From: a virus | Length of the DNA stretch: 31,348 nucleotides | IMG/VR virus record: IMGVR_UViG_3300037882_003902 | Span: 1 to 31,348 of that record | Direction: 5' to 3' (one strand) | Shown: in pieces, positions 15,964 to 28,205 of the stretch | How the letters are laid out: each line of letters starts with the position of its first letter | How positions within the stretch are numbered: the stretch's first letter is position 1 | Position numbers and translations under genes: made by a program | The notes under the pieces: model-generated | The model's database searches: none | The model's input: the letters and a program-made list of their open reading frames with translations, nothing else | Told to the model about the DNA's origin: nothing

Positions 15964-16482
15964 ATGTTTGATTTACTTTTGAAAGACGGAACTACTAAAA
16001 CCGTATCCACTAAAGCAGAAGCCGACACCCTTGTCTCTTTGGGAATGGGCACACTTGTTGTTCCTACAAATGGCGCAACAACAAAACCCACATTCGATAA
16101 GGTGATGCCGATTGATGCAGCCGCAAAGGAAACGTACCGTAAGATCCGAACTGCGCAAGCAGAACGGGCAATCGGTGGCGTACCTGCTGCGATTGTCGCT
16201 AAACACGCTCCGACCTTGCAAAATGTTACCGAAGAAAACAACGGTGATGTACTTGAAAATGGGTCTGCTGTTGTTGTTGGTTGTATTACCCGAAAAAGTC
16301 GTGCTAATGGTACTCCTTACATGGCAATACGCGTAAAGTACGCAATTGATGGTAATGAGTATCAGGTAAACACATTGCCAAACGGATTGGACGAATTACC
16401 CGATGAGGGCACAATTGTAAATTGGGCAATCGTGGTACGGACTGAATCGCAGTCTAAAACCAGCTTTAATTTGGTAGCCTAA
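15964..16482 (+). CDS. Hypothetical protein, possible OB-fold, 172 aa
   Basis: First gene of the rightward region. Residues 1-~90 are A/T-rich and helical (AETYRKIRTAQAERAIGG-like). Residues ~98-172 (SAVVVGCITRKSRANGTPYMAI ... EYQVNTLP ... GTIVNWAIVV) look like beta strands with a Lys/Arg-rich turn, as in OB-fold single-strand DNA-binding proteins. No acidic SSB tail is present, so the role is uncertain. It has its own strong terminator 8 bp after the stop and a long structured leader, so it is probably a separate, abundant transcript. Confidence 0.78.
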   Translation: MFDLLLKDGTTKTVSTKAEADTLVSLGMGTLVVPTNGATTKPTFDKVMPIDAAAKETYRKIRTAQAERAIGGVPAAIVAKHAPTLQNVTEENNGDVLENGSAVVVGCITRKSRANGTPYMAIRVKYAIDGNEYQVNTLPNGLDELPDEGTIVNWAIVVRTESQSKTSFNLVA

Positions 16483-16729: not shown

Positions 16730-17149
16730 ATGGTCATGAAAATCGAAAAGACAACAGTAGTATTAGTAGCCGAAACCAATTTCAAACGCACATTGTACTG
16801 CCACTTAATCCGCCCACAACAGACTGAAGATGGGAAATGGATTTGGCGTAAAGGAGCAATGAGTATGTATTCTCCTGATCCTACAAAGCCTGCTGCACGA
16901 TATTTCGTGTGGACAGAAGATGCACAAGGAAAACTCAGAGGATACTGGCAGCCAATTGAATCAAGACAAGAAGCTCTTGAATTATACAACAGGGCTTTAA
17001 TTCATCTTGAATCTGTACAGCACAGAGAGGCACATGGTAATAATATCCCTAAAGAGCAGGAAACTACTTTAGAATTATTAGGCTACATTAAGTACAATTG
17101 GCACATCAATCGGTGGGAATGGATTACAAGTCCTCTCACGCTGCGTTAA
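16730..17149 (+). CDS. Hypothetical protein, 139 aa
   Basis: Not recognised. Soluble, rich in Trp and Arg, with beta-like N-terminal half (KTTVVLVAETNFKRTLYCHLIRP) and a helical ESRQEALELYNRALIHLESV segment near 77-96. It ends NRWEWITSPLTLR. The start may be 16730 or the ATG at 16736 (MKIEKTTVV). It is preceded by a hairpin array. Confidence 0.75.
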   Translation: MVMKIEKTTVVLVAETNFKRTLYCHLIRPQQTEDGKWIWRKGAMSMYSPDPTKPAARYFVWTEDAQGKLRGYWQPIESRQEALELYNRALIHLESVQHREAHGNNIPKEQETTLELLGYIKYNWHINRWEWITSPLTLR

Positions 17150-17404: not shown

Positions 17405-17634
17405 TGTCATATCCACTAACAGATAAGGATAAAGGAGTCTCCGTTAAGTACTCCTCATTCTTGTGGTTCTTTCCAGAAACACATTCTCAGTACGATTATT
17501 ATAAAGATCGTGGAACAGAATGTACATATGAAGAGCATAGAATACAAGTTAAACTGTTCAAAGAAGAACAGGAAAAGCTTGTAGACAAACGTTCTGATTA
17601 TGAAAGATTTTGGTTAGAACACAGGAAATCATAA
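17404..17634 (+). CDS. Hypothetical protein, 76 aa
   Basis: Not recognised. N-terminal MSYPLTDKDKGVSVKYSSFLWFFPETHSQYDYY, followed by a charged helix ending EHRKS. Translationally coupled to the preceding gene by a one-base overlap. Soluble and aromatic-rich. Confidence 0.7.
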   Translation: MSYPLTDKDKGVSVKYSSFLWFFPETHSQYDYYKDRGTECTYEEHRIQVKLFKEEQEKLVDKRSDYERFWLEHRKS

Positions 17635-17640
17635 CCCGCT

Positions 17641-17870
17641 CGTTAGGGCAACAGGTCCTAGAAACGCCTGTAATTAACTCAGCTAAGTAAAGGATAGGCT
17701 GAGTCTATGGACTCTCTCTACACCGTGTCCCATCACGGTAGATAAGCAACAGCTTATTAAGCTCTTTATGAGGAGTTAAAACGGAAAACCTTCATGTGAA
17801 GGAGAGTAGGTGTGAGCTATCACCCTAAGTCGAAAGACTCAAACCACTCATTATAGTGGAGTAAATAGCA
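17641..17870 (+). other. Non-coding array of about nine hairpins upstream of a tRNA-like gene
   Basis: No gene. Consecutive perfect or near-perfect stems: ACAGG/CCTGT (17651-17671), ACTCAGC/GCTGAGT (17677-17704), CCGTG/CACGG (17723-17738), AGCTT/AAGCT (17751-17763), CCTTC/GAAGG (17789-17802), GGTG/CACC (17809-17824), AGTC-GAAA-GACT (17828-17839, GNRA loop) and CCACT/AGTGG (17844-17859). This density over 230 bp, ending at the tRNA-like gene, suggests a folded transcript. It also holds CCCTAAGTCG (17823-17832), which recurs at 19981-19990. Confidence 0.55.
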
Positions 17871-17872
17871 TG

Positions 17873-17973
17873 GCCTCTTTAGCTCAATGGTAGAGCACCT
17901 GAATATGTTGTTAACGAGTCTTAGGATCTACACAGCATTAGAGGAGATACTGGTTCGAGTCCAGTAGGAGTCA
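17873..17973 (+). tRNA. Atypical tRNA-like gene, 101 nt, expanded anticodon domain
   Basis: Acceptor GCCTCTT pairs with AGGAGTC (one mismatch), followed by T-A, D arm GCTC/GAGC with loop AATGGTA, and T arm ACTGG-TTCGAGT-CCAGT with discriminator A. These parts are canonical. Between D and T arms there are 51 nt instead of 21-40. CCTGA/TTAGG can close an 18-nt loop, then ATCT/AGAT a second arm. No normal 7-nt anticodon loop can be assigned, so no isotype is given. It may be a tRNA with an insertion or a tRNA mimic. Confidence 0.6.
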
Positions 17974-17994
17974 CTCATTATTCAATCAAACAAT

Positions 17995-18255
17995 ATGAAA
18001 CTTAATCTAGCATTTCCTGTTTATAAAGAGCCTCTAATATTTGAAGAGGATGCAAATAAAGACATTTACTCAGGTCAGTATGATCTAGTGGATGCGAACA
18101 GCAATACTTTGTACACAAAAGGTGTTTCATCTGGGCCATACAGTATGGTCAGCGCGGCTTGTTCTGGGTACTATAAATCTTGGGAAGAACTTCCTAATGA
18201 TGTAAAAGAAGCTCTGGAAGAAGAATACGATGAGCATATTGCTTCAACTCTTTAA
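17995..18255 (+). CDS. Hypothetical acidic protein, 86 aa
   Basis: Not recognised. MKLNLAFPVYKEPLIFEED, then YDLVDANSNTLYTKGVSSGPYS (small beta fold) and an acidic helical end (LPNDVKEALEEEYDEH). Predicted cytoplasmic. Flanked by the tRNA-like gene and a three-way-junction RNA element. Confidence 0.7.
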   Translation: MKLNLAFPVYKEPLIFEEDANKDIYSGQYDLVDANSNTLYTKGVSSGPYSMVSAACSGYYKSWEELPNDVKEALEEEYDEHIASTL

Positions 18256-18783: not shown

Positions 18784-18800
18784 ATTCATGCCTTTTTAAA

Positions 18801-18826
18801 GGTGAACGGACGTAAGTTAGTTCACC
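18801..18826 (+). repeat. GUAA-hairpin repeat, copy A
   Basis: Stem GGTGAAC/GTTCACC (7 bp), then G·A, then GAC-GTAA-GTT apex. It lies 17 nt after the stop at 18783 and is followed by TATTCT. The apex is shared with four other sites (22900, 24551, 25192, 25647). Confidence 0.85.
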
Positions 18827-18839
18827 TATTCTCTAATCA

Positions 18840-18921
18840 TTAAAGAAATATCCGTCCCCAGCTAACAAGGAAGTCGGCACCGTAATCACGGGCATTGTTA
18901 GTTTGGGGGCGCATTCTTTAA
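18840..18921 (+). other. Long interrupted hairpin RNA
   Basis: Nested pairing: TTAAAGAA/TTCTTTAA (18840-18847 with 18914-18921), CCCC/GGGG, CTAACAA/TTGTTAG, and inner CCGT-aatc-ACGG. Next come ACTCC/GGAGT (from 18921) and CTTGCAG/CTGCAAG, which overlap and so cannot form together. No gene in 18784-18993. A regulated leader or stable RNA is possible. Confidence 0.55.
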
Positions 18922-18993
18922 CTCCTTGCAGGGAGTATAAACCGTGTTAGGCTGCAAGCGTTGTCAATAGACAGGTCACAATTCAACTTTACT

Positions 18994-21065: not shown

Positions 21066-21226
21066 GTACGTATAAGAAACAGAGTAGCCACGAATCTACA
21101 TGGTACAACTCTATACGGACTTCTACAGTATCATGGCGTAAGAAGTCAAGTTACAAGAAAAAGTTAAAGAGAGAAATCTCTAAGAAGATCAGACGTGAAG
21201 GTAAAAAAGAATTAAAAGAATACTAA
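21062..21226 (+). CDS. Very basic small protein, 54 aa
   Basis: MSTYKKQSSHESTWYNSIRTSTVSW and then a Lys/Arg helix (KKKLKREISKKIRREGKKELKEY). The ATG overlaps the stop of the preceding gene (ATGA), a strong coupling signal. About one third of residues are K or R, so nucleic-acid binding is likely; a partner for the structured RNAs around it is only a guess. Not recognised. Confidence 0.65.
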   Translation: MSTYKKQSSHESTWYNSIRTSTVSWRKKSSYKKKLKREISKKIRREGKKELKEY

Positions 21227-21284
21227 GAATAATTTTCATGAGATAGAACCTAATCGTTACAAAAGAGTAGTGGTTAGGTTTAAT

Positions 21285-21356
21285 GCCTTCGTAGCTCAGC
21301 GGAAGAGCAACTGCCTTCTAAGCGGTAGGTCACAAGTTCGAATCTTGTCGGGGGTA
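21285..21356 (+). tRNA. tRNA-Arg (anticodon UCU)
   Basis: All four arms pair: GCCTTCG/CGGGGGT (with G·U pairs), GCTC/GAGC, ACTGC-CTTCTAA-GCGGT, and ACAAG-TTCGAAT-CTTGT. The anticodon is TCT, reading AGA/AGG. The discriminator A at 21356 is followed by an encoded CCA (21357-21359). A terminator follows 25 bp later. Confidence 0.93.
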
Positions 21357-21383
21357 CCAGCTTCATATAGGAATAGTTTAATT

Positions 21384-21416
21384 AGATGATTAGTTATTAC
21401 AACTAATCATCTTTTA
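21384..21416 (+). terminator. Intrinsic terminator after tRNA-Arg
   Basis: An 11-bp perfect stem (AGATGATTAGT 21384-21394 with 21402-21412), 7-nt loop TATTACA, then TTTATCTTG. Confidence 0.8.
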
Positions 21417-21447
21417 TCTTGTCATTCATATTTAAAACATATACGTT

Positions 21448-25231: not shown

Positions 25232-25300
25232 GCCCATATCGTCCAACGGTAGGACAGTGCTATGAGTGTTAGAATTCGGGTTCGATTCCCGATGTGGGCA
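25232..25300 (+). tRNA. Short tRNA-like gene, 69 nt, irregular anticodon arm
   Basis: Acceptor GCCCATA/TGTGGGC, D arm GTCC-AACGGTA-GGAC, T arm TCGGG-TTCGATT-CCCGA and discriminator A are all canonical. Only 19 nt separate D and T arms where at least 21 are needed. CTA/TAG (25260-25262 with 25270-25272) can close a 7-nt loop TGAGTGT, but there is no U33 and the stem is poor. No anticodon can be assigned. Either degenerate or deliberately modified. Confidence 0.65.
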
Positions 25301-25329: not shown

Positions 25330-25590
25330 ATGAAGTATGGACTTATACTTTTGCTTCTATTACTGGCATACGCTGAGGTGTATGGCCAGAACACACAAGA
25401 AACGGAACTTACTGAAATAGAGTACAAGGGTGAAGACCTATTGGCTCTGAAAGTAACGTACAAAGAAAGAAACGGTGAGTTTTATCAATATTACGATCCG
25501 TCATCTCTTGCTCTTATTGCCTATAACATGTGGGATGAGTGGTACTTTGTTGTACCAAATATCCGCAGTTGCGTAAGCTGCAGAAAGTAA
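25330..25590 (+). CDS. Small secreted protein, 86 aa
   Basis: Signal peptide MKYGLILLLLLLAYAEVYG, with likely cleavage before Q20. The mature ~67 residues are acidic, then aromatic (YQYYDPSSLALIAYNMWDEWYFVV), and end with two Cys (SCVSCRK). The in-frame ATG at 25294 lies inside the tRNA-like gene and is rejected. Family unknown; periplasmic action is expected. Confidence 0.72.
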   Translation: MKYGLILLLLLLAYAEVYGQNTQETELTEIEYKGEDLLALKVTYKERNGEFYQYYDPSSLALIAYNMWDEWYFVVPNIRSCVSCRK

Positions 25591-28127: not shown

Positions 28128-28154
28128 GCTTTTGAGATTTAATCCTTTTTAATA

Positions 28155-28191
28155 GACGGGGCATCGTGGCAAAGGTCATGGTGACCCCGTT
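28155..28191 (+). other. 16-bp near-perfect hairpin before the holin-like gene
   Basis: GACGGGG-CATC-GTGGC, loop AAAG, GTCAT-GGTG-(A)-CCCCGTT: sixteen pairs including G·U and one bulged A. No U-run follows, so it is probably not a terminator. It ends 14 bp before the ATG at 28206 and could delay or tune translation of that gene. Confidence 0.65.
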
Positions 28192-28205
28192 AATCTTAAT
28201 CAATT

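Follow-up and report, generated by a model that had tools for sequence, protein, structure and literature searches.

The 31-kb phage fragment analysed here (the window, i.e., the whole stretch of 31,348 nt) carries, at 17873-17973 on the plus strand, a 101-nt tRNA-like RNA gene with an intact tRNA body, no restorable anticodon arm, and a site between co-directional genes. We tentatively read this element as a non-decoding tRNA-like RNA, most likely a processing mark in a one-directional phage transcript. Judged from the sequence, this reading stands at somewhat less than an even chance and ranks first, followed in order by a decaying pseudogene, a functional tRNA matured by an unusual route, and a decoy for a host defence enzyme.

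A tRNA body with an expanded middle

The Rfam tRNA model RF00005 matches 17873-17973 (+) at 45.6 bits (cut-off 29; E = 7.8e-07 over the window, and 1.9e-10 in a separate genome model search), which confirms the coordinates and the length that the initial annotation had given for a tRNA-like gene. The 5′ part (17873-17896, +), delimited by sequence, cmscan alignment, and a pair check, comprises the 5′ acceptor strand (17873-17879), U8-A9, and a 4-bp D arm (17882-17896, GCTC-AATGGTA-GAGC). The 3′ part (17949-17973, +), delimited by sequence and cmscan alignment, comprises a 5-bp T arm (17949-17965, ACTGG-TTCGAGT-CCAGT), the 3′ acceptor strand (17966-17972), and a discriminator A (17973). The bases for tertiary contacts can be read directly from the sequence (U8, A14, G18, G19, A21, T54 T55 C56, A58, and G53-C61), and an A15-U48 pair is possible. 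CCA is not encoded, A73 being followed by CTC. The arms had been called canonical, which holds for the D and T arms; the acceptor (GCCTCTT/AGGAGTC), however, forms 6 of 7 pairs, with a C2.U71 mismatch. The acceptor, D, and T arms that a functional elongator tRNA requires are thus all present, at a model score above the cut-off.

The D and T stems are separated by 52 nt (17897-17948, +), where class I tRNAs have a gap of about 22-23 nt. The expansion reported previously is therefore real, although its length had been counted as 51 nt. By excision tests, a fold test, and the scoring of candidate structures, these 52 nt are an expanded domain in place of both the anticodon arm and the variable loop. 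ARAGORN, a check proposed in the initial annotation, lists only three other tRNAs in the window and calls none at 17873-17973.

The state of the body bears on whether the element is a decaying pseudogene, that is, a former Asn-like tRNA that has lost its function after at least two insertions or rearrangements disrupted its anticodon domain. No part of the D arm, the T arm, or the set of tertiary-contact bases is missing, which is more than long random decay would be expected to leave, and the body scores well above the RF00005 cut-off, whereas the acceptor mismatch, a 52-nt domain with neither a recoverable arm nor a significant fold, and a second defective-arm tRNA-like gene on the same contig all speak for decay. 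We consider decay rather improbable, but the best of the alternatives to a processing mark.

Tests for a hidden anticodon arm

The initial annotation had suggested an unusual intron or insertion. If a single contiguous insertion interrupted a normal arm, its removal should recreate the 5-bp stem with its 7-nt loop. Every contiguous excision was scored for a restored anticodon arm (5-bp stem, 7-nt loop with U33) and compared with shuffles under three rules. No excision restored the arm above chance (P = 0.38 at class I spacing; P = 0.55 and 0.60 under freer rules), and neither directly nor after one excision does the element show the arm of an elongator tRNA beyond what shuffles give. In the positive controls, four interrupted tRNAs (L109, L116, L016, and L296), excision yields perfect arms, with P values of about 0-0.007 under the two stricter rules and 0.03-0.06 under the freest. 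The fold of the 52-nt domain is insignificant against shuffles (P = 0.26). Its best local fold joins CCU/AGG to AUGUUGU/ACAGCAU (17905-17911 with 17932-17938), giving CCU/AGG, a 4x3 internal loop, and 7 bp, and differs from the canonical archaeal bulge-helix-bulge tRNA intron, in which 3-nt bulges at the two exon borders flank a 4-bp helix. Because no excision beats chance and the domain has no significant fold, the reading as a simple intron is unsupported, and a normal tRNA with one intron was rejected given that the controls succeed. R1, a search model made from the hairpin+ACAGCAA insert family described below, likewise found no match at 17873-17973 (filters off, E up to 10), and the suggested intron or insertion, in its simple form, is unsupported on both counts.

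An over-long, interrupted stem (CCUGA..UUAGG) would allow a loop like that of tRNA-Asn(GUU), UUGUUAA at 17908-17914, to be drawn, yet 13-16% of shuffles give comparable drawings (P = 0.13-0.16; hairpin energy: P = 0.43). We rejected an Asn(GUU) loop on an extended stem on this ground, and the earlier statement that the element offers no drawable standard anticodon loop is right in essence, with this one drawable arrangement as its exception. The same loop enters into a further reading, in which the element is a functional tRNA, perhaps tRNA-Asn(GUU), whose precursor would be matured through two insertions, a non-contiguous excision, or toleration of a long stem that carries the UUGUUAA loop, along with an extended variable region. 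The loop has U33 and A37/A38, and the 5′ half of the element resembles phage SPO1 tRNA-Asn (93% over 29 nt); phage tRNAs do commonly contain small intron-like inserts, and introns have been reported in the tRNAs of Lak phages (PMC6784885). Since the loop arrangement lies within chance, no single excision works, and R1 finds no match, we regard such a tRNA as unlikely.

Other candidates for the expanded domain were rejected as well. In a class II tRNA, a stable variable stem would come after an anticodon arm of the normal kind; with variable regions of up to 24 nt allowed, the excision test gave P = 0.60, and the 3′ part alone folds at -0.8 kcal/mol. A group I intron was judged by a catalytic core of about 200 nt or more and by the Rfam intron models: the domain has only 52 nt and matches no group I model at E up to 10. 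Neither YrlA (RF02553) nor tmRNA has an Rfam match in 17620-17995 at E up to 10, and ARAGORN calls no tmRNA.

A second tRNA-like gene and the surrounding transcript

ORFs of the contig look from their sequences to encode a terminase, a portal protein, GroEL/GroES-like proteins, and ThyX. The terminase and ThyX have database relatives: the nearest terminase in the phage collection is that of Cellulophaga phage phi14:2 (33%), IMG/VR holds terminase relatives of 81-85% identity on short contigs, where no tRNA match was found, and the ThyX relatives reach 69% identity at most. The ORFs near the element (15964 rightwards) had no match in the loci compared at the stage of the ThyX search, and no relatives were found for the proteins of 15964-16482 and 16730-17149. 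DNA patterns built on the element retrieved unrelated tRNAs only; a match in Lak-A1 was set aside as a tRNA of normal length. The searches turned up no relative that spans the locus, so that the body with its 52-nt domain is known from a single copy, which is the main weakness of all readings.

From 15964 to the right end of the window, the tiling ORFs all lie on the plus strand, and four hits to the tRNA model stand singly between them: the 17873 element, 21285 (Arg UCU), 22755 (Met CAU), and 25232. Directly 5′ of the 17873 element, the ORF-free segment 17635-17872 (+) is strongly structured (MFE -76.8 kcal/mol, z = -4.6, matched by 0 of 200 shuffles), with no credible Rfam match and no homologue in the loci compared; it is possibly on one transcript with the tRNA-like gene. 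An 86-aa ORF without a family match (17995-18255, +) starts about 21-22 nt 3′ of the element. Other gaps in the window are unusually structured, e.g., 18784-18960, 21066-21447, and 28128-28205.

The hit at 25232-25300 (+; RF00005, 43.5 bits) is a second tRNA-like gene with an intact body and a defective anticodon arm. Read from the sequence, its acceptor has 7 of 7 pairs and its D and T arms are good; the best anticodon arm in the excision test has 4 of 5 pairs, a G at position 33, and a variable loop of 1 nt. ARAGORN labels this gene tRNA-His (atg), a label that is doubtful and that we do not trust. An ATG at 25331 follows about 30 nt downstream. Of the four tRNA-model hits in the contig, two (17873 and 25232) thus retain the body but have no anticodon arm that could be used.

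The acceptor/T-arm body is the part of a tRNA that RNase P and RNase Z recognise, and in mitochondrial transcripts tRNA bodies between co-directional genes punctuate the RNA as cleavage marks. Retention of the body despite the loss of the anticodon suggests enzymes whose recognition is confined to the body, of which RNase P and RNase Z are the simplest. As a processing mark, the element would have kept its acceptor/D/T body as the target of cellular enzymes for which the tRNA body alone matters, while its anticodon domain would have been free to diverge and would have been replaced by the 52-nt sequence. RNase P would cut at 17872/17873 and RNase Z after 17973, and these cuts would release the upstream structured RNA and leave the downstream mRNA (ORF 17995) with a new 5′ end. 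We infer both this processing and its purpose. The reading is favoured because the 25232 gene shows the same combination of body and arm, and because 17635-17872 is strongly structured and the ORFs are co-directional, with single tRNA hits between them. Against it are the acceptor mismatch together with the predicted preference of the RNA alone for a non-cloverleaf fold, and the consideration that ordinary tRNAs, such as those for Arg and Met, could mark sites without any loss of the anticodon. Among the options raised in the initial annotation, a tRNA mimic fits best, given the intact body and the lack of a restorable arm, although the function as a mimic would be our inference.

A Pistol ribozyme match lies at 18921-18980 (+; 36.0 bits, Rfam cut-off 34.5), with an ATG shortly 3′, in the 18993/19015 region. 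The motif GACGTAAGTTAG is repeated on the plus strand at 18809, 22909, 24560, 25199, and 25657 (5 matches against 0.12 expected); most copies form a hairpin loop on a stem whose sequence varies among copies, and one lies just 5′ of the 25232 gene. From their sequences, the Pistol match and the repeated hairpins suggest RNA processing in the same region. A ATTCAACTTTA-like repeat ending in ATG occurs at 18981, 19183, 26348, and 28435 (+), several times at ORF starts, and may be a promoter or initiation signal that these sites have in common.

The initial annotation had also raised a resistant variant or decoy, in which a recognised body without a cleavable anticodon loop would tie up a tRNA-targeting defence enzyme of the host. 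This reading is weakened by the general dependence of anticodon nucleases on the anticodon stem-loop, which the 17873 element lacks. An intact body with an abnormal anticodon domain occurs twice in this one phage. Defences that cut tRNAs have been documented, as have phage tRNAs acting against them (PMC11555353), and changes in the anticodon loop are predicted to confer nuclease resistance (PMC10264068). The documented phage tRNAs, however, restore or replace the host tRNA pool and retain their anticodons, and nothing in the window indicates a nuclease target or a decoy function. We hold a decoy to be the least probable of the four readings, and quite unlikely.

Expanded tRNA-like genes elsewhere and known systems

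A search pattern with D and T arms far apart retrieved at least 120 stretches in IMG/VR, so expanded-middle tRNA-like genes are not rare. Among the matches listed, those with a good acceptor fall into three groups. The first has a normal anticodon arm followed by a long variable arm (e.g., the Ile-like UAU set L014, L017, L019, and L033); the second, with many members, has an insert whose removal restores the arm; the remainder resemble the 17873 element in that an arm is not clearly restorable (e.g., L008, L052, L067, L108, and L115). Four expanded phage tRNA-like genes (L006, L042, L065, and L114) have a CTCATGGTGAAGGACC-type core in the anticodon domain and no ordinary arm. Two His-like (GUG) tRNAs, L016 and L084, carry an anticodon-loop insert after CTGTG that starts with GGA and ends with GATTA, possibly, by its sequence, a separate insert type.

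The hairpin+ACAGCAA family consists of inserts in which a hairpin of about 5-9 bp, in many cases capped by a G-initial tetraloop, is separated, usually by 2 nt, from (A/U)CAGCAA; this motif is followed by a 3′ junction that restores the anticodon arm. Viral members are L011, L028, L046, L061, L092, L102, L109, L116, L118, L120, L124, L126, L127, L128, L132, and L134; members on bacterial contigs are L239, L251, L283, L296, L297, L316, and L329. The same arrangement occurs in many contigs of Clostridia and other bacteria, any prophage stretches included; carriers include Sarcina sp. DSM 11001 contigs, L267, L273, and L284. Among 107 distinct members, 60 allow a clean excision; in these the inserts are 34-54 nt long, with a median of 43. 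The inserts lie mostly after nt 27-29 in the 5′ anticodon strand, in some genes after the anticodon loop. All seven hairpin pairs covary (103 double-change cells vs. 32 in shuffles), and 90% of hairpin cells are paired, compared with no more than 48% after a shift of one to three columns, evidence that is somewhat overstated by a family selection that required the hairpin. Excision restores the anticodon arms of many isotypes, with an apparent UCA (opal) anticodon in L329, and the carriers often hold ordinary tRNAs too. ARAGORN often misses these tRNAs, and three carrier loci have no tRNA call at all; in the two insert loci searched, no Rfam family other than tRNA scored above cut-off. If spliced without protein, the inserts would be far smaller than the self-splicing introns known to us. 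No description of the family was found in the literature searched; it is more interesting than the 17873 element and merits its own study. The 17873 element lies outside it: its ACACAGCAUU near 17930-17939 is too near the T arm and has no qualifying hairpin before it.

It is conceivable, if doubtful, that tRNA bodies without an anticodon form a class of RNA tools in phages, serving as processing marks or enzyme decoys; this class would include the two in the window and some of the arm-less expanded tRNA-like genes elsewhere. If real, this would mean that phages reuse the tRNA body for non-decoding ends and that such genes are overlooked or wrongly labelled in standard annotation.

The bacterial Y RNA YrlA and tmRNA mimic the tRNA body without an ordinary decoding arm; their models do not match the 17873 element, which has its acceptor, D, and T arms in ordinary tRNA order. 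Mitochondrial punctuation shares with it the placement of tRNA bodies between co-directional genes, but the element is in a phage and would be processed by bacterial enzymes. Introns of unclassified type were described in the tRNAs of Prevotella Lak megaphages (Devoto et al. 2019, PMC6784885), which, like the element, are oversized phage tRNA genes missed or left unclassified by standard tools. Excision gives classifiable tRNAs in the Lak phages, where intron-less alleles exist, whereas no excision restores an arm here; Lak-A1 has no R1 match, so these data do not link the Lak introns to the ACAGCAA family. Phage tRNAs rescue phages from tRNA-cutting defences (PMC11555353), and for phage tRNAs whose anticodon loop is changed, resistance to anticodon nucleases has been proposed or predicted (van den Berg et al. 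2023, PMC10264068). The latter share an altered anticodon region with the 17873 element, but they are ordinary tRNAs with loop mutations, whereas in the element the whole anticodon domain is abnormal.
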